A DNA stretch of 64,000 nucleotides from Solibacillus sp. FSL H8-0538. GTDB lineage: Bacteria; Bacillota; Bacilli; Bacillales_A; Planococcaceae. The stretch lies in contig NZ_JBBOPI010000001.1 of the NCBI RefSeq assembly GCF_038003525.1, forward strand, positions 735,001 to 799,000, given 5' to 3'. Under the pieces are notes generated by a model. The model was not told the origin of the DNA and made no database searches. It saw nothing but the letters and a program-made list of their open reading frames with translations. The position numbers and the translations under genes were made by a program. This document shows, piece after piece, positions 23,764-32,093 of this stretch; the stretch's first letter is position 1, and each line of letters starts with the position of its first letter.

Positions 23764-24043
23764 AAGGATGTTTCTTAGAGAGGAAAAGAAACATCCTTCT
23801 AAGAAAGCAGATACTAGTTGATTGGAGTGGAAGGCGGCGACTCCAGCCGGAATAGCATGAGGTGAAGACCCCGCAGGAGCGATTTAGGAACAAAGGCTAA
23901 GAACGCCACGTCCTGTGGCAACGCCTTCGTGACCAACATCGTGTTGGCCCGAGGAGGCTGAGGCCATGCCGGCGGAACGCGTCCGCCTGGAACGCAAATC
24001 AACGGCTCGCTATGAAATACCTAGAGGACTTTTCAGTACCCTC
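23764..24043. repeat. palindromic repeat type I (copy C) with 63-bp insert and IS-like end
   Basis: A leader (GGATGTTTCTTAGAGAGG and a complementary arm) precedes the palindrome 23819-24003, which begins TTGATTGGAGTGGAAGGC and ends AACGCAAATCAACGGC. An end-like motif GAGGACTTTTCAGTACC follows. It matches copy E (35945-36224). Its apex holds the 63-bp module at 23887-23949 in place of the TAGCGA seen in copy E. Confidence 0.75.
23887..23949 (+). repeat. 63-bp nested module, copy 2
   Basis: GGAACAAAGGCTAAG... to ...GTGTTGGCC; 61 of 63 bases equal the minus-strand copy at 5785-5847. Hairpins GCCAC/GTGGC and CCAAC/GTTGG are preserved. The host repeat belongs to a different type (I, not II). Confidence 0.75.
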
Positions 24044-24052
24044 CTATTTTTT

Positions 24053-24125
24053 AGTGGATAAGAAATTATAACGTTCCCATCCACATCAACTCGTCCAATT
24101 TCTGGGCGAGTTGTGTTTTTCTAAG
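24053..24125 (+). repeat. terminator-associated two-hairpin repeat, copy c
   Basis: After CTATTTTTT it reads GTGGATAAGAAATTATAACG and, on the 3' side, CAACTCGTCC/GGGCGAGTTG followed by TGTTTTTCTAA. The 3' hairpin carries compensating changes relative to CATCTCGCCC/GGGCGAGATG of other copies. Confidence 0.6.
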
Positions 24126-24384
24126 AATTTTTTATAAGGGGAGTATTTTTTCTTAATGAACACTCAAATAGACGAAATGAACATACAACTTAACCGTAAA
24201 TAAGTGCCATTTGCACTTAATTTCAAATAAGTTGTATATCAAGTTCGACGATTTTTACAATTCACGTAAATAAATTTCGCTGGTAATTTTCCTCGCTCGG
24301 ATTTTAGCAATATACTTTTTTTAGTGTAGAATGGAGTTACATAGTTACGTCACGAATTTTGTTTGCGTATAGGAGGACAACAGT

Positions 24385-25560
24385 GTGAATTTTCAACCCG
24401 TGGGAGCGAATGAACGAATTTCATCGCTTGATATTTTAAGAGGATTTAGTTTACTTGGTATTTTACTAGTTAATATGTTCGGTTTTTATTTACCAATGCC
24501 GTACGTGTTTGACTTAAGTTATTGGTTTACGGAGGCGCAAGATATTATTTTGCATCAAATCTTAGATATTTATGTGCAAAGTAGTTTTTATCCGTTATTT
24601 TCAATGTTGTTCGGTTATGGCTTAGCCATGCAATATATGAAGGCGCAAAAAACAGGAACCAATTTTTATCAATTTGCACCGAAGCGTTTAGTCATTTTAT
24701 TTATTATTGGAATGCTGCACGCCATTCTTATTTGGTGGGGCGATATTTTAGCAATTTACGCATTTTGCGGCTTCTTTTTACTGATGCTCCTTCGTTTCAA
24801 GGGCGGTACATTACTAACAATTGCTCTTGCCATAAATGGATTGTTTCACGCCTTTTTATTGTTTGTTTATGCACAGATGGGTATGTTGTCAATGCCGGTT
24901 GAGAAGGCAGCTGTAGATATCACGGCGATTGAAAATGTGATTACAGCATACGGTGTCGGTACTTGGACAGATGCATTTATGCAACGTCTCGACGATCTGT
25001 CCTTACAGATGGGCGGCGACATGTGGATCTCTGGATTATTTACAATTTTACCGTATATGTTAGTCGGTGCAGCTGCAGCAAAATGGCGTTTAATTGAGCG
25101 TGCCAAGGAAAAAATGGGTCTCTGGATTGCGCTCGCTATACTCGGCCTTGGACTTGGTATTTTTATTAAAAGTGCACCGATTACGTTTACACGTACATAT
25201 GGACTCGATTATTTAAAAGTGTATGTCGGAGGGCCGCTATTATCGATCGGCTATATTGCTGTAATTGTTCTTGTATGCTTACTTCCTATTGCCTTAAAAC
25301 TATTAGGACCAATTGCGAAAGCCGGTCGTATGTCTATGACGCTATATTTAATGCAATCCGTTATTTGTACAACATTATTTTATCATTGGGGCTTTGGATT
25401 ATATGGACAAGTAGATGTACAAATGGGTATCTACATTGCACTTGGAATTTATGCTACTCAGCTTGTCATTGCTGAACTATGGCTATCGAAATTTACTCAA
25501 GGTCCAGTTGAAGCAACAGTGAAAAAATTAACTTATAGAAAAAAGTTGTCAGAAAAGTAA
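24385..25560 (+). CDS. DUF418 family membrane protein (YeiB-like)
   Basis: 391 residues with about nine membrane spans. The N-terminus RISSLDILRGFSLLGILLVN is the family hallmark, and the C-terminal DUF418 region includes AGRMSMTLYLMQSVICT and GPVE near the end. The family resembles membrane acyltransferases; its substrate is unknown. GTG 24385 follows TAGGAGGACAACA. A weak TAGAAT is at 24327-24332. Confidence 0.85.
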   Translation: MNFQPVGANERISSLDILRGFSLLGILLVNMFGFYLPMPYVFDLSYWFTEAQDIILHQILDIYVQSSFYPLFSMLFGYGLAMQYMKAQKTGTNFYQFAPKRLVILFIIGMLHAILIWWGDILAIYAFCGFFLLMLLRFKGGTLLTIALAINGLFHAFLLFVYAQMGMLSMPVEKAAVDITAIENVITAYGVGTWTDAFMQRLDDLSLQMGGDMWISGLFTILPYMLVGAAAAKWRLIERAKEKMGLWIALAILGLGLGIFIKSAPITFTRTYGLDYLKVYVGGPLLSIGYIAVIVLVCLLPIALKLLGPIAKAGRMSMTLYLMQSVICTTLFYHWGFGLYGQVDVQMGIYIALGIYATQLVIAELWLSKFTQGPVEATVKKLTYRKKLSEK

Positions 25561-25616
25561 GGCAAGTTCTGTGGATATGATGTATCATGTAGGAAAAAGA
25601 AGGAGCGCTTTATACT

Positions 25617-26519
25617 ATGAAAATGTTATCATTTAAGCTAAATGAGCAAGTGAAGTTCGGTCCGAAAGTTAAAAGAGAAGAAGCAGTTTGGGATGTAGTA
25701 GAAATTCAACAACAACTACAAGTACTACCTTCTTTTCCGTCAACAATTATTGACGGGATCTCGTTAGGTTTTGATTTCGTTGAGCAAATTCGCAAATTAG
25801 TAGATGCTGCTCAAAAAGCGGAAAATGGGGACCGATTTAAATGCGCATTCACTGAAATTGAGTGGCTTTCACCAATTCCACGTACGCCTAAAAATATTTT
25901 GTGTGTTGGCAAAAACTATGATGAGCACGCAAAAGAAATGGGCGCTGAAAAAGCACCTGAAGACATTATGGTTTTCACGAAGTCTCCAACAGCAATTGCT
26001 GCGGATGAAGCAACATTACCGATCCATGCTGAAAAGACGAGTACGCTAGATTACGAGGGTGAACTTGCAGTAGTGATTGGCAAGCGCGGCAAGGATATTC
26101 CTAAAGGGATGGCGTTTGATTACGTATTCGGGTATACAATCGGCAACGATATTACAGCACGAGAGCTACAAGAAAAACATAAGCAGTATTTCTTAGGAAA
26201 AAGCTTGGAAGGAACTTGTCCATTAGGTCCGTACCTTGTCACGAAGGACGAAATTCCTGATCCACATGCACTTTCCGTTGTCACGAAAGTAAATGGCGAG
26301 GTACGTCAAAACGGTTCTACAAAGGACATGATGTTCTCAGTAGGTGACATTGTTTCGATTTTATCGCAGCATGTAACACTTGAACCGGGAGATGTCATTT
26401 TAACGGGTACGCCAGCTGGAGTCGGTAAAGGCATGAACCCACCAGTATATTTAAAAGCTGGCGACGAAGTGAAAATTTCGATTGAGGGTATTGGTACATT
26501 AGCGAACCGTTTTGCTTAA
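25617..26519 (+). CDS. yisK: YisK-like fumarylacetoacetate hydrolase family protein
   Basis: 300 residues. The C-terminal FAH fold (about 95-300) has the metal-binding acidic residues in LDYEGELAVVIGK and the typical GYTIGNDITARELQ and GDVILTGTPAGVG motifs. B. subtilis YisK, which also sits next to yisL, has been reported to have oxaloacetate decarboxylase activity and to associate with Mbl; transferring this here is inference. ATG 25617 follows AAGGAGC; ATG 25623 is possible. Confidence 0.85.
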   Translation: MKMLSFKLNEQVKFGPKVKREEAVWDVVEIQQQLQVLPSFPSTIIDGISLGFDFVEQIRKLVDAAQKAENGDRFKCAFTEIEWLSPIPRTPKNILCVGKNYDEHAKEMGAEKAPEDIMVFTKSPTAIAADEATLPIHAEKTSTLDYEGELAVVIGKRGKDIPKGMAFDYVFGYTIGNDITARELQEKHKQYFLGKSLEGTCPLGPYLVTKDEIPDPHALSVVTKVNGEVRQNGSTKDMMFSVGDIVSILSQHVTLEPGDVILTGTPAGVGKGMNPPVYLKAGDEVKISIEGIGTLANRFA

Positions 26520-26642
26520 CTCGTTCGATGAAAAGACAAGATTCATTAATTTCTAAAGATATCCAAGCCATATAATTGAATCACATCCCATCGCATGTTA
26601 GGATATTGCATGAAGAGAAAAAAATATGAGGTGGGAAAAAGA

Positions 26643-27011
26643 ATGGATTTATTAACTGGTTCAACACATTTACACATTACAACATGGGTACTGGCAATCA
26701 TTCTATTTTTAGTAGCAGCACTTGCAAGCAAAAAGTTAACAGGCGTTCAAATGGCGCTACGTGTCGTGTACATATTAATGATCATTACTGGTGGTGCATT
26801 ATTTATGGAATACCGCGATATCGTAACTGAAGGCGGCATGTATTACGACATGAAAGTATTGTTCGGTGTGTTAGTGATCGGATTTATGGAAATGATTTTA
26901 GCTCGTAAAAATAAAGGTAAATCATTAAATATCTTCTGGATTTTATTTGGTGTTGTTTTACTTGTAACGCTTTACTTAGGTTTAAGTGGCGGTATTGGTA
27001 TGAATTTCTAA
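26643..27011 (+). CDS. yisL: YisL-like DUF1516 membrane protein
   Basis: 122 residues with four hydrophobic spans; recognisable start STHLHITTWVLAIILFLVA and RVVYILMIITGGALF. Function unknown. It follows yisK as in B. subtilis. ATG 26643 is chosen with GAGGTGGG at 26628-26635; the frame opens at 26595 without a site. Confidence 0.85.
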   Translation: MDLLTGSTHLHITTWVLAIILFLVAALASKKLTGVQMALRVVYILMIITGGALFMEYRDIVTEGGMYYDMKVLFGVLVIGFMEMILARKNKGKSLNIFWILFGVVLLVTLYLGLSGGIGMNF

Positions 27012-27025
27012 TAGATGAATGATCG

Positions 27026-27060
27026 AAAGCTACTTCGGAAATTTTGAAGTAGCTTTTTTT
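27026..27060 (+). terminator. intrinsic terminator of yisL
   Basis: AAAGCTACTTC pairs with GAAGTAGCTTT and is followed by a T run, 14 bases after the stop. Confidence 0.9.
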
Positions 27061-27216
27061 TAGGTAAATATAGCCGTTTGAGAAAATACTGAGATTCATT
27101 TTCACGATTGTCACCTTTTTGTCGTAAATAAATAGAAATAACTGTGAAAAGGTAGCGACCAACAGATGAATTTTTGGTAAAATTACGTTTGATTGTTGTG
27201 AAAGAGAGGGATTAAT

Positions 27217-28686
27217 TTGAGATTTAAAAAGTGGATCGGTGCGACTGCGGCAAGCGTATTACTTGCGGCCTCGTTTTCAACAGCCTCTATTGCGAGTGCT
27301 GAAGCAACACGTACAATCGCGGATGAAAGTATATATGATTTATTAGTAGACCGTTTCTTTAATGGTACAGGTACAAATGATATTGATGTGAATGCAAAAG
27401 ACCCAACATTGTTTGCTGGTGGCGACTTTAAGGGACTTGTTGCCAAAAAAGACTTCATCGATAAAATGGGCTTTACGATTGTTTCGATTGGTTCTGTATT
27501 TGATACAGAAAAATATGATGGCTCAATGCCAACTAGCTACACAACACTTGAAGAACATTTCGGTACAGAAGATGAATTAAAAGAAGCAATTACTGCTTAT
27601 CGTGCTAGCGATATGAAAATTATGGTCGATTTCCCACTATCAAATGTAAGTGCTAATCATGAATGGGCGACAGATGCTTCAAAAGCAGCCTGGGTAGCTA
27701 GTTCACAAGATGGCAAGGTACAGTGGGATTTGTCGAATTCAGATGTACAGCAAGCATTAATAGATGCGGTTGTAACCTTTGTTAAAACGTCGGATGTGGA
27801 TGGCATTCGTTTAACAAATTTAGAAAATGCAGATACAGCCTTTGTGAATGAAGTAATTGATGCTATTAAAGCAGTGAAATCAACTATTTATATCATTTCA
27901 AATGAAGAAAGTGACGCAAATTTTGATGCGAAATATTACGCAGATACACAGGAAATTTACCGTAATATTTATAAAAATGTTGATTTAGATTCTACACATA
28001 TTGATGCGCATGTGGAAGAATATATAAACGGTGACGGAATTCCGACACAGTTAATGTTCGATAATTTAAATACGAATCGGTTTACATTAGATTCAGCAAA
28101 TGAAAATATGTTCCCGCCAACACGTATTAAAACAGCAATTTCTGGTACGCTTTTATTACCAGGGCTTCCAGTTATTCAGTACGGTTCGGAAATTGCGATG
28201 AATGGTGAAGCTGGTCCGGAAGCGCACCAATTCTATAACTTCAAAACAGATACAGAGTTAATTGACTATATTGGCGATTTGCAATCATTACGAAATGACT
28301 CTGAAACATTGCGTACCGGAGAATTCAAATGGCTGAAGAATGAAAATGGTTTCATTGCATTTGAACGTAAATCCGAAGATGAAACATGGATTGTTGTTAT
28401 TAATAATACAGGTGAAACTAATCGTGTGAACATTTCACCAGAAGAAATCGGCGAAGGGAAAGAACTTCGCGGGATGTTTGAAAGCGAAATTATCCGTAAA
28501 AACAAAGAGGGCTATTATCCAATAATTTTAGACCGTGAAATGGTAGAAATATACCAAGTCATTGAAAAACGTGGATTAAATACTTCATATATAGTAGCTC
28601 TTGCATTAGTTGGAATTTTATACGCAGGATTCATGGTGATTATTATTAAACGTGGACGTAAACGCCGCGCAGAAAAAGGTCAATAA
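27217..28686 (+). CDS. membrane-anchored alpha-amylase-fold (GH13) protein, probably non-catalytic
   Basis: 489 residues: signal peptide (1-28), GH13-like barrel (about 34-400), beta domain, and a C-terminal membrane span (about 462-480) with a basic tail (KRGRKRR). The fold is clear from IYDLLVDRFFNG, region I VDFPLSN, region II DGIRLTN and region IV FDNLNTNRF. Key residues are lost: the nucleophile Asp of region II is Thr200, the His-Asp pair of region IV is Leu284-Asn285, and the region I Asn-His is Ser142-Asn143. Arg198 and a possible acid Glu230 remain. It probably binds rather than cleaves. TTG 27217 follows AGAGAGGG. Confidence 0.8.
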   Translation: MRFKKWIGATAASVLLAASFSTASIASAEATRTIADESIYDLLVDRFFNGTGTNDIDVNAKDPTLFAGGDFKGLVAKKDFIDKMGFTIVSIGSVFDTEKYDGSMPTSYTTLEEHFGTEDELKEAITAYRASDMKIMVDFPLSNVSANHEWATDASKAAWVASSQDGKVQWDLSNSDVQQALIDAVVTFVKTSDVDGIRLTNLENADTAFVNEVIDAIKAVKSTIYIISNEESDANFDAKYYADTQEIYRNIYKNVDLDSTHIDAHVEEYINGDGIPTQLMFDNLNTNRFTLDSANENMFPPTRIKTAISGTLLLPGLPVIQYGSEIAMNGEAGPEAHQFYNFKTDTELIDYIGDLQSLRNDSETLRTGEFKWLKNENGFIAFERKSEDETWIVVINNTGETNRVNISPEEIGEGKELRGMFESEIIRKNKEGYYPIILDREMVEIYQVIEKRGLNTSYIVALALVGILYAGFMVIIIKRGRKRRAEKGQ

Positions 28687-28713
28687 AAAGTAGAATAATT
28701 AATAAATTATAAG

Positions 28714-28757
28714 CTGCAAGTGCATTTAGACGTCTAAATGCACTTGCAGTTTTTTTG
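28714..28757 (+). terminator. intrinsic terminator of the GH13-like gene
   Basis: CTGCAAGTGCATTTAGAC and its exact complement form an 18-bp perfect stem followed by seven T. Confidence 0.92.
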
Positions 28758-28839
28758 ATAGATAAGAAAGTATAACTTTCTTATCTACATAAGTAAGGAC
28801 ATCATCTCGCCCTATATTGGGCGAGATGTGTCTTTCTAA
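28758..28839 (+). repeat. terminator-associated two-hairpin repeat, copy d (best preserved)
   Basis: It begins directly after the T run. Hairpin 1: AGATAAGAAAGT/ACTTTCTTATCT. Linker ACATAAGTAAG. Hairpin 2: GACATCATCTCGCCC pairing with GGGCGAGATGTGTC (imperfect), then TTTCTAA. Other copies are compared with this one. The following stretch 28840-29160 is AT-rich and I recognise nothing in it beyond presumed upstream signals of the transporter operon. Confidence 0.7.
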
Positions 28840-29169
28840 CGTTTAATAAACTATAACTTCTCTATGTCATAAACTTCTACTAGCGTAGGTTTCTCTATTT
28901 TTTCACAATAGTTATTCTAATTAATTCAAGTAATATCATGTAATAAGAATAGAAATCTACGCATAAATAGTTATACATACACTACCAGTCTCTCTCATAT
29001 TGTGAACATTAATAGTTTTGCTAGCCATGAATTATAAATTTTGAATTTTCGACTATATTGAATATAAGTATTATAAAAAGAATCCGGTAAAGGATATAAA
29101 ATATGCGATATTTATTTGATTTAATTTCCTTAATATTCTAGCGTATTTTCGTTTGAAAGGAGAATTAAT

Positions 29170-30201
29170 TTGAAAACATCCAAAGAGCTATTAAAGATAA
29201 AAGATTTATACACCGGTTTTCGAATTAAAGATACGTTTTTTGATGCAGTTGACGGAGTATCGCTTACATTAAAAGAAAATGAAATTCTTGCAATTGTAGG
29301 TGAATCAGGATGTGGTAAAAGTACGCTTGCAATGTCCATTATTGGATTACATGATCACAATAGAACACGTATACAAGGAGAAATCCTATTTAAAAATAAA
29401 AACTTAGCGATAATGATGGAGGAAGAGCTCAACGATGTCCGCGGCTTAGATATCGGTATGATTTTCCAGGATCCATTATCCGCTTTAAACCCGTTAATGA
29501 GAATTGATGAGCAAATTGAAGAGGGTTTGATTTATCATACGAAATTAACAAAGGATCAGCGCAAGGCACGTGTGCAGGAGTTATTAAGGCAAGTGGGAAT
29601 ACCAAACCCCGAGCGTGTGGCAAAACAATTTCCACATCAATTATCTGGTGGTATGCGTCAACGTGTCATTATTGCAATTGCCATTTCGTGTAAGCCAAAA
29701 ATCATTATTGCGGACGAGCCAACGACAGCGCTAGATGTAACGATTCAAGCGCAGATTTTAGATTTATTAAAAGATTTACAAGCTGAAACAGGTGCTGGGA
29801 TCATTTTGATTACCCATGATTTAGGGGTTGTCGTCGAAGTAGCGGACCGCGTCTCCGTTATGTATGCAGGCCAAATTATTGAAGAAGCTTCAGTAGAAGA
29901 GCTTTTCATGAATCCGAAGCATCCGTATACGCGTTCATTATTTAACTCCATACCGCAAATGAACGCAGCGGAGGGAGCGAAGCTAAACGTCATTGAAGGA
30001 ATGGTCCCTTCATTAGTAAAGCTGCCACGTCAAGGTTGCCGATTTGCTTCACGAATTTCATGGATTCCGCTTTCTGCACATGAAGAGACACCGACGTTAC
30101 ATGAAGTTTCTCCTGGACATTTAGTACGATGCACGTGCTGGCAAGAGTTTTATTTAAAAGCGAAGAAGGAGGACGATCATCATGAGTTTCATGCAGATTA
30201 A
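29170..30201 (+). CDS. appD: peptide ABC transporter ATP-binding protein (AppD/OppD type)
   Basis: 343 residues. Walker A GESGCGKST (about 43-51), LSGGMRQR signature, Walker B IIIADEPTTALD and the C-terminal peptide-transporter extension ending HEVSPGHLVRCTCW. Of the Cys ligands usual in OppD-type tails only the first and last are kept, as I remember for AppD-type proteins. It energises uptake of oligopeptides with appF-appB-appC-appA. TTG 29170 follows AAAGGAG. It overlaps appF by 20 bases. Confidence 0.88.
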   Translation: MKTSKELLKIKDLYTGFRIKDTFFDAVDGVSLTLKENEILAIVGESGCGKSTLAMSIIGLHDHNRTRIQGEILFKNKNLAIMMEEELNDVRGLDIGMIFQDPLSALNPLMRIDEQIEEGLIYHTKLTKDQRKARVQELLRQVGIPNPERVAKQFPHQLSGGMRQRVIIAIAISCKPKIIIADEPTTALDVTIQAQILDLLKDLQAETGAGIILITHDLGVVVEVADRVSVMYAGQIIEEASVEELFMNPKHPYTRSLFNSIPQMNAAEGAKLNVIEGMVPSLVKLPRQGCRFASRISWIPLSAHEETPTLHEVSPGHLVRCTCWQEFYLKAKKEDDHHEFHAD

Positions 30202-31129
30202 TGATTTAAAAGTCCATTACCCAATTCGCGGTGGATTTTTTAATACGGTCGTAGATAAAGTCTATGCTATTGATGGGATTTCGATGGAGTTTGAAAAAGG
30301 CAAAGCGTACGGTTTAGTAGGTGAATCCGGCTGCGGGAAATCAACAACGGGTAAGGCTATTATTGGGTTAGAAAAAATTTCATCGGGTTCGATTTTTTAT
30401 GAGGGCGAAAACATGACGAATAAACGTCGAGATCGTCAGTCTTCCTATAACCGTGATATTCAGATGATTTTCCAAGATGCAAATTCAAGCTTAAATCCAC
30501 GTAAGCGTGTACAAGAAATATTAGCAGAACCCATTCATAATTTTTTAAACCTAACTCCGCATGAAGAAAACAGAAAAATCAGTGAATTACTTGCCGTTGT
30601 TGGAATGCCGGAAGATGCGAAATTAAAATATCCACATGAATTTTCGGGCGGTCAAAAGCAACGTTTAGGTATTGCACGAGCGATTGCGACAAATCCTAAA
30701 CTTATTATTGCAGATGAACCTGTCTCGGCGTTAGATTTATCCGTTCAGGCACAAGTACTGAACTTTATGAAAGATATCCAAAGTGAATTTGGACTGAGCT
30801 ATCTATTTATTTCACATGATTTAGGTGTTGTTAAACATATGTGTGACAATATTGCCATTATGTATAAAGGACGTTTCGTAGAATCTGGTTCTAAAAAAGA
30901 CATTTATGAAAATCCACAGCATATTTATACGAAGCGTTTATTATCCGCGATTCCTGATGTTACACCAATTGGTCGCGAGGCGCGCAAAGTACAACGTATT
31001 GAAGTAGAGCGTCACTATCAACAGGAACATAAAATGTATTTTGACGAAAATGGCCGTGTTTATGATTTAGCGCCAATATCCAATACACATTATGTCGCTA
31101 TAACTTCGTTAGTGAAGGGAGGCGTTTAG
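30182..31129 (+). CDS. appF: peptide ABC transporter ATP-binding protein (AppF/OppF type)
   Basis: 315 residues, the second ATPase. Walker A GESGCGKST, signature FSGGQKQR, Walker B IIADEPVSALD. The C-terminal tail ends in YDLAPISNTHYVA, as in AppF-like proteins, and lacks the Cys-rich extension. ATG 30182 follows AAGGAGGACG inside the end of appD. appB starts one base after its stop. Confidence 0.88.
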   Translation: MSFMQINDLKVHYPIRGGFFNTVVDKVYAIDGISMEFEKGKAYGLVGESGCGKSTTGKAIIGLEKISSGSIFYEGENMTNKRRDRQSSYNRDIQMIFQDANSSLNPRKRVQEILAEPIHNFLNLTPHEENRKISELLAVVGMPEDAKLKYPHEFSGGQKQRLGIARAIATNPKLIIADEPVSALDLSVQAQVLNFMKDIQSEFGLSYLFISHDLGVVKHMCDNIAIMYKGRFVESGSKKDIYENPQHIYTKRLLSAIPDVTPIGREARKVQRIEVERHYQQEHKMYFDENGRVYDLAPISNTHYVAITSLVKGGV

Positions 31130-31130
31130 G

Positions 31131-32093
31131 ATGTGGAAAACTGTAGTCCGTCGATTCTTAATAATGATTCCACAGTTAATCGTACTCAGTTTAATTATTT
31201 TCTTCATGGCAAAATTTATGCCAGGTGATCCGTTCACTGGGAAGGTAACACCGGAAACGGATCCAGCGCGTATCGAAGAACTACGAGAAAAGGCAGGGTT
31301 AAACGATCCATGGTATCAGCAATATACTCGTTGGATGGGCAATGCATTTCAAGGGGAGCTTGGGAATAGTTATACGTATAAAGTAAAGGTAACAACATTA
31401 ATTGGAGAACGTGCGTTAAATACGTTTTGGTTATCGTTGCTTAGTGCCATTTTCCTGTATGCGATTGCGGTTCCACTAGGGGTTCTCTCAGGACGCTATA
31501 GCAATTCGTTATTTGATCGGGGTGTTGTGTTGTATAGCTTTATCAGTTATGCAATCCCACTCTTCGTGTTAGCGTTAATTTTCCTTTATATTTTTGGCTA
31601 TCAGTTCCACTGGTTCCCAACGAGTGGCTCGGTAAATATTAAACATGATCCAGGTACGGTGGGGTATGTATTCAGTAAAATTTATCATATGCTGCTACCA
31701 GCGATCACCTATGCAGTACTTGGAACAACGGGTGTAATCCAATATTTACGTACAGAAGTAATCGATGCAAAAACAATGGATTATGTGCGTACTGCGCGTA
31801 GTAAAGGGGTTCCAATTCGTAAAGTGTATACAAAGCATATTTTCCGGAATTCGCTACTCCCGATTGCTGCATTCTTCGGGTTTACAATTACTGGATTACT
31901 AGGTGGATCGATTTTCATTGAAACAATTTTTGGTTTCCCTGGAATGGGTCAATTATTTATTTCTTCTATTATGTCACGTGACTACAGCGTAATTACAGCG
32001 CTTGTTATGTTATATGGCTTCTTAGCATTATTAGGTAGTCTATTATCCGATATTATTATGAGCATTGTTGACCCGCGTATTAGGATTGAATAG
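31131..32093 (+). CDS. appB: peptide ABC transporter permease (AppB/OppB type)
   Basis: 320 residues, six membrane spans, with the binding-protein-dependent permease loop RTARSKGVPIRKVYTKHIFR that contacts the ATPases. GAAGGGAGG precedes ATG 31131. Confidence 0.9.
   Translation: MWKTVVRRFLIMIPQLIVLSLIIFFMAKFMPGDPFTGKVTPETDPARIEELREKAGLNDPWYQQYTRWMGNAFQGELGNSYTYKVKVTTLIGERALNTFWLSLLSAIFLYAIAVPLGVLSGRYSNSLFDRGVVLYSFISYAIPLFVLALIFLYIFGYQFHWFPTSGSVNIKHDPGTVGYVFSKIYHMLLPAITYAVLGTTGVIQYLRTEVIDAKTMDYVRTARSKGVPIRKVYTKHIFRNSLLPIAAFFGFTITGLLGGSIFIETIFGFPGMGQLFISSIMSRDYSVITALVMLYGFLALLGSLLSDIIMSIVDPRIRIE

Follow-up and report, generated by a model that had tools for sequence, protein, structure and literature searches.

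The question raised by positions 27,217 to 28,686 of the DNA analysed here (64,000 nucleotides of Solibacillus sp. FSL H8-0538, contig NZ_JBBOPI010000001.1, positions 735,001 to 799,000; hereafter 'the window') is what function an exported protein of α-amylase architecture may serve if its active site no longer carries the residues of an amylase. The open reading frame, with its coordinates, frame, signal peptide and membrane anchor, is exactly as an earlier note made from the sequence had described it. The motif GAGAGG precedes the TTG start, stops are abundant on the reverse strand across the same stretch, and the encoded protein is laid out as follows:

27217..28686, + strand: gene of the putative anchored GH13 pseudo-enzyme, 489 residues plus stop, TTG start
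27217..27300, + strand: signal peptide, residues 1-28, ending ...ASIASA and followed by EAT (hydropathy; cleavage site by eye)
27307..28317, + strand: GH13 (β/α)8 barrel with reduced domain B, residues 31-367, bounds approximate
28318..28554, + strand: domain C, residues 368-446, PF22026
28585..28647, + strand: C-terminal transmembrane helix, residues 457-477 (sequence, hydropathy)
28648..28683, + strand: basic tail KRGRKRRAEKGQ, presumed cytosolic (sequence)

That the protein has the α-amylase fold, as the note had also proposed, is borne out by profile searches, in which PF00128 (1.1e-20) places the GH13 fold beyond chance and the α-amylase C domain PF22026 matches at 2.6e-22, and by its nearest solved structures, Anoxybacillus ASKA (5a2b, 1.1e-71) and Geobacillus GTA (4e2o, 1.8e-67). 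An AlphaFold2 model of the window protein, computed together with 16 Lysinibacillus sequences, is of low confidence (mean pLDDT 50.6, pTM 0.40). PF00128 matches this gene alone, as two pieces, in its own 3.93-Mb genome, and in seven of 11 sampled family genomes, spread over ten genera, the triad-less protein described below is likewise the sole PF00128 gene. In plasmid records, copies of the gene are annotated as 'alpha-amylase family glycosyl hydrolase'.

Catalytic positions and ligand contacts were transferred from TASKA via a printed alignment, with the contact list taken from passages of PMC4791539. The codons of main interest, each placed by alignment, are these:

27814..27816, + strand: T200, nucleophile position, D213 of TASKA
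27901..27903, + strand: N229, acid/base position, E242 of TASKA
28066..28071, + strand: L284-N285, region IV, H309-D310 of TASKA, D310 being the stabiliser
28225..28227, + strand: H337, R362 of TASKA, a maltose contact

All three members of the TASKA triad D213/E242/D310 are altered, to T200/N229/N285. Alignment to ASKA agrees with the note in finding T200 for the nucleophile Asp, L284-N285 for the region IV His-Asp and S142-N143 for the region I Asn-His; the change at the acid/base position had gone unmentioned. The note went astray over YGSE, which it counted as a further lost site: full-triad relatives read T (19/25) or S (6/25) there, that is, mostly YGTE/YGSE, and the Glu of this motif (E325) is retained in all 153 triad-less rows of the alignment. 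Among the nine maltose contacts of TASKA, R211 is the sole survivor (R198), and the other eight are changed, with Y100, W101, Y143, H309 and R362 corresponding to S103, M104, A146, L284 and H337. The Ca2 ligands N44, N49, D50 and D65 of TASKA are all retained (N49, N54, D55 and D70), and the Ca1 ligand N139 is replaced by S142.

The same picture extends to the orthologues. The alignment comprises 178 non-redundant proteins, those with identical C-terminal 380 residues being counted once, and divides into 25 rows with a full D/E/D triad and 153 triad-less rows, 135 of which represent the window's family (Planococcaceae), among them 12 from named Lysinibacillus and a single plasmid copy from Planococcus; the named loci in a search for close homologues were Lysinibacillus in 16 of 16 cases. 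The Asp nucleophile and the Glu acid/base are retained in none of the 135 family rows: the residue at position 200 is T in 105 rows, Q in 20 and S in six, never D; that at position 229 is N in 79 rows and D in 34, never E; and position 285 varies widely, with D in 12. The loss seen in the window protein is thus shared by its orthologues, and the window's lineage holds no full-triad case. As to triads at shifted positions, which would have told against the note's reading, the window's lineage has none, although in seven of the 135 family rows, the window's own not among them, acids do lie within one residue of each of the three catalytic positions and may there form a shifted triad. One lineage (L039, L042, L043, L044, L046 and L049) carries Q200-D201, D229 and D or E285.

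Further features of GH13_45 have gone along with the triad. The tryptophan pair in helix α-3, described in passages of PMC4791539 as a hallmark of GH13_45, is WW or YW in 25/25 full-triad rows and absent from the family, where residues 187/188 read DF, EF, QF, SF, TF, GF and others; likewise the LPDIx signature (CSR-V), present as LPD.. in 25/25 full-triad rows, gives way to QVQWD, KIQWD, TIDWD and others. Entropy at positions 143, 229 and 285 amounts to 2.3, 1.7 and 3.2 bits. Within the full-triad rows the contact Y143 is conserved in just 10 of 25, and the remaining eight contacts in all 25. Domain B is mostly missing in ten family copies of 438-476 residues (L058-L062, L071, L073, L092, L112 and L136), and 36 of the 135 rows retain the Ca1 Asn. 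The side-chain ligands of Ca2, however, persist (N49 in 126, N54 in 135, D55 in 130 and D70 in 135), which argues that the fold is maintained. A further set of positions is near-invariant in the family and differs from the full-triad relatives, namely D41 (132 of 135), S90 (131), G92 (135), D101 (125) and H337 (130), the last being Arg in 25/25 full-triad rows. The C-terminal helix and its positive tail occur in 153/153 triad-less and 25/25 full-triad rows, so that the anchor is inherited and no new invention; Y458, Y469/F and F472 within this region are conserved in the family, the GH13_45 criterion being five conserved aromatics.

A quick maximum-likelihood tree, built from 88 rows sharing less than 70% identity, gathers 73 of the 75 triad-less rows into a single clade (SH-aLRT 99) nested among full-triad GH13_45 rows, a position that indicates descent of this clade from GH13_45. 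It includes other Bacilli families, and the acid/base Glu is still present in the rows closest to its base (S-E-K, S-E-L). The two triad-less types outside it, a Cytobacillus plasmid copy (L161, T-D-H) and G338/L202 (H-E-D), imply that catalytic loss has occurred more than once. A genome search detected a homologue in 255 of 261 family genomes and in 19 of 19 genera; one of the 255, G077 (81% complete), has the full-triad type only. Among the six genomes without a match, G020-G023 of genus g6 show a clean yisK-yisL locus minus the gene, and G214 and G247 are contig-edge cases; the gene is dispensable in genus g6, having been cleanly lost in four genomes. By the method of Nei and Gojobori, 125 triad-less pairs with dS between 0.1 and 1.0, many of which share ancestry and none of which contains the window gene, give a median dN/dS of 0.073 (range 0.035-0.166), and four full-triad pairs give a median of 0.034. 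The note's judgement that the gene is not decaying accords with this median, with the single old clade and with the near-universal occurrence. The triad-less state is old and not a product of local decay, and the pattern of substitutions indicates that the protein is preserved by selection.

The surroundings of the gene are conserved in many genomes, and comprise in the window:

24385..25560, + strand: DUF418/YeiB-like multi-pass membrane protein with D16-x2-R19-x10-N30, candidate partner
25617..26519, + strand: YisK-like FAA hydrolase, conserved neighbour
26643..27011, + strand: YisL (DUF1516) small membrane protein, conserved neighbour
27025..27057, + strand: terminator-like hairpin after yisL
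27108..27129, + strand: upstream box TTGTCACCTTTTTGTCGTAAAT, family-conserved
27175..27183, + strand: extended -10-like element TGGTAAAAT, family-conserved
28711..28752, + strand: terminator-like hairpin of 19 pairs after the putative pseudo-enzyme gene

Across 78 family loci with the triad-less gene (the 80 fetched and the window, after removal of three of full-triad type), same-strand upstream genes are addA in 72, yisK in 71, DUF418 in 70, yisL in 68 and addB in 59, usually in the order addA-DUF418-yisK-yisL, and yisL stands immediately before the gene in 53. The hairpin between yisL and the gene makes co-transcription improbable, and YisK and YisL were rejected as operon partners on this ground; with terminator-like hairpins on both flanks and a conserved promoter block, the gene looks monocistronic. 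The block, at 27108-27183, consists of the box TTKTCAC...TTTTGWCG..AWTT, a GAAAagATAGCG-like element and the extended -10. The box scores above 5 in 136 of 153 upstream stretches, with a matrix trained on these same stretches, and above 10 in 121 of 153, as against six of 153 after shuffling. A regulon was sought in the window's own genome among the six exact matches to the box pattern, and none was found: the matches are the gene's own, four inside open reading frames, and one (L230) that lies 91 bases ahead of an open reading frame with, by eye, a thioredoxin-like look. A link to CssR was considered and dropped, and an Rfam search of 24000-31500 returned no family reaching the gathering threshold.

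The loci of full-triad genes are composed differently. MalE/F/G-like neighbours accompany 25/25 of them and a LacI-like gene 24/25, and neither yisL nor DUF418 lies within the fetched stretches of these 25 loci. The nearest transporter genes in the window are those of Opp, not Mal; the Opp peptide transporter adjoins the gene downstream there, yet was discarded as a partner, with OppA in 15, OppB in 17, OppC in 17 and OppF in 19 of the 78 loci. In other Bacilli families, the full-triad gene follows yisL at a distance of 9-25 kb, in the same orientation, in 16/16 genomes that have both places among the matches listed (15 full-triad and G338 with H-E-D), so that the triad-less gene probably occupies the ancestral chromosomal site. 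Second copies of the Planococcus type and a plasmid copy (L098, L103 and L160) are additional triad-less copies amid CDF, P-type ATPase, ArsR and CopC/CopD-like metal genes, and in five loci a peptidoglycan hydrolase with a PcsB coiled coil and an M23 domain is encoded directly downstream of triad-less copies.

The most suggestive neighbour is the DUF418 protein. In the window it matches PF04235 (4.1e-37), with Acyl_transf_3 and YeiB below cut-off, and of 75 DUF418 copies, no fewer than 95% retain D16-x2-R19 and N30. According to passages of PMC12423673, DUF418/YeiB, AT3 and HGSNAT belong to one superfamily of transmembrane acyltransferases (TmATs), whose helix 1 carries DxxR together with Asn (HGSNAT) or His (AT3, DxxRx10H), and in some of which an extracytoplasmic domain is thought to hand the acyl group to a sugar. 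A DUF418 match is present in 257 of 261 family genomes and missing from G020-G022 and G077; G023 has only a weak match (3.9e-37), away from the locus. Contig-edge cases aside, the genomes devoid of the triad-less GH13 gene are thus also devoid of the locus DUF418, with yisK and yisL remaining in G020-G023, and this amounts to one clean event of co-loss and one doubtful one, G077 being incomplete. Among 97 yisK loci, 73 have both genes, six GH13 only (L067, L112, L206, L208, L211 and L227), four DUF418 only and 14 neither. Loci with one gene of the two speak against a dependence: DUF418 occurs apart from GH13 in L249, L256 and L271, in yisK context, and in L268; L189 was counted as DUF418-only although a triad-less GH13 gene lies more than six genes off. 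In L206, L208 and L211 the DUF418 slot is filled by a membrane protein of 311-347 residues for which no Pfam match exceeds the cut-off. Corrected for descent, four independent contrasts are left, which go the same way in 1.9 and the other way in 0.3 cases on average (median p 0.5). Co-location in 70 of 78 loci and the one clean co-loss suggest a partnership of the two proteins, an association that is non-significant after correction for descent. It is tempting to speculate, unlikely as we consider it, that the GH13 protein serves as the outer subunit, binding the acceptor, in a transmembrane acyltransferase made of two proteins, in which DUF418 would carry acyl groups across the membrane and the pseudo-amylase would present a surface sugar chain, the pair being an independently evolved bacterial counterpart of the GH13-fold heavy chain and multi-pass light chain of animals. 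If this pairing were true, it would provide the substrate-recognition half for acyltransferases whose acceptors are mostly unknown.

Several other accounts of the protein have to be weighed. It might still be an enzyme of the BmaN1 sort, hydrolysing through an unusual or shifted triad: BmaN1, with its altered Lys/Asp-Glu-His triad, is reported to hydrolyse soluble starch at 8.4 U/mg (passages of PMC5347038), seven family rows have acids close to all three positions, and in the window E230 sits one residue past the acid/base position N229. We regard this as very unlikely, however, since T200 is flanked by L199 and N201 and hence has no acid within one residue, the Glu kept by BmaN1 is N229 here, T200-N201, N229 and N285 depart from the BmaN1 pattern of Lys then Asp, Glu and His, and no family row has D200 or E229; moreover, the losses extend to the Y, W, H and R that contact maltose, ten family rows are without most of domain B, and seven of 11 genomes have no other GH13 protein, the nearest transporter in the window being Opp rather than Mal. 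The opposite extreme, a relic on its way out and retained by chance, could draw on the four genomes of genus g6 in which the gene is cleanly deleted, and on a related family whose yisK-yisL loci do not contain it. It is extremely improbable in view of the low dN/dS, the one old clade and the presence of a homologue in nearly all family genomes, with an anchor in 153/153 rows and a conserved promoter block.

A third account takes the protein for a new enzyme, with its pocket rebuilt around the fixed D41, S90, D101 and H337 and the kept D282, R288, Y322 and E325. The near-invariance of D41, S90, G92, D101 and H337, located at strand ends and in the β-2 loop, is what one would expect of it, yet positions 143, 229 and 285 drift in a manner that a working centre would not, a binding site accounts for the same conservation, and the pocket geometry comes from the alignment alone, the low-confidence model being unusable. 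We consider a rebuilt enzyme to be decidedly unlikely.

A non-catalytic role in the envelope fits these observations best, as far as sequences can tell. We find it likely that the protein is a catalytically dead, extracellular, membrane-anchored descendant of an active Bacilli GH13_45 amylase, with a non-hydrolytic function in binding or as a scaffold. The sequences show that the nucleophile, the acid/base and most substrate contacts were lost once, early, in the main triad-less clade; the protein has afterwards been kept by selection, mostly at its probably ancestral chromosomal place, and the maltodextrin operon accompanying active relatives is absent. It would be exported and held on the outside of the membrane by its C-terminal helix, leaving a binding or scaffold ectodomain as its role without hydrolysis. 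As S90, G92, D101 and H337 have become fixed to new residues, a remodelled barrel mouth, or its vicinity, probably holds a ligand or partner, pocket positions being those given by the alignment. The DUF418 transmembrane acyltransferase is a candidate for that partner, which we put forward with low confidence. One consequence is that, with the gene annotated as an amylase, counts of starch degradation in these genomes are inflated. If the binding role is true, this is an ancient pseudo-enzyme, present throughout the family, whose active ancestor is clear, whose losses fall in a dated order, with the acid/base Glu surviving in some relatives, and for which natural deletions exist; the function of a dead glycosidase would thereby become testable in easily grown bacteria.

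Closest in sequence among known systems are the full-triad GH13_45 enzymes ASKA/TASKA, GTA and BaqA, which have the signal peptide, barrel, domain C, Ca2 ligands and C-terminal anchor in common with the present family, whereas the latter lacks the triad, the maltose contacts, the tryptophan pair, LPDIx and the MalEFG operon. Triad-less GH13_45-like sequences as such have been known since 2017: in passages of their paper, Sarian et al. describe a second, smaller group of seven GH13_45-like sequences (Nos 28-34) with the entire triad changed and nearer to BaqA, which are termed putative amylases (PMC5347038). A 2025 paper states that most GH13_45 sequences are without complete conserved regions (PMC12695923), and BmaN1 is described elsewhere as bearing a C-terminal transmembrane helix (PMC11448133). 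The present family resembles the BmaN1 group in being GH13_45-like with an altered triad, but BmaN1 itself differs from the window protein in keeping the acid/base Glu and a neighbouring Asp and in its reported activity; Nos 28-34 might overlap with the present family. In the open-access literature we found no description of this Planococcaceae family as an anchored pseudo-enzyme, nor of a pair formed by DUF418 and a GH13-fold protein.

The SLC3 heavy chains of animals, 4F2hc and rBAT, likewise have a GH13-fold ectodomain devoid of hydrolysis on a single membrane helix; they are type II proteins with an N-terminal anchor, and their partner is an amino-acid transporter. The likeness to them drawn in the earlier note holds for the working plan, a putatively dead GH13 ectodomain on one membrane helix, and fails for membership: the window family has a C-terminal anchor and a cleavable-type signal peptide, arose separately inside GH13_45, and was found with no transporter partner. 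If the neighbouring DUF418 protein is indeed the partner, a further parallel would be that with two-part TmATs (AT3-SGNH proteins such as OafB/OatA, and HGSNAT), to whose superfamily it is assigned in PMC12423673; it has DxxR-x10-N, and the outer domain would here be a separate protein of GH13 fold.
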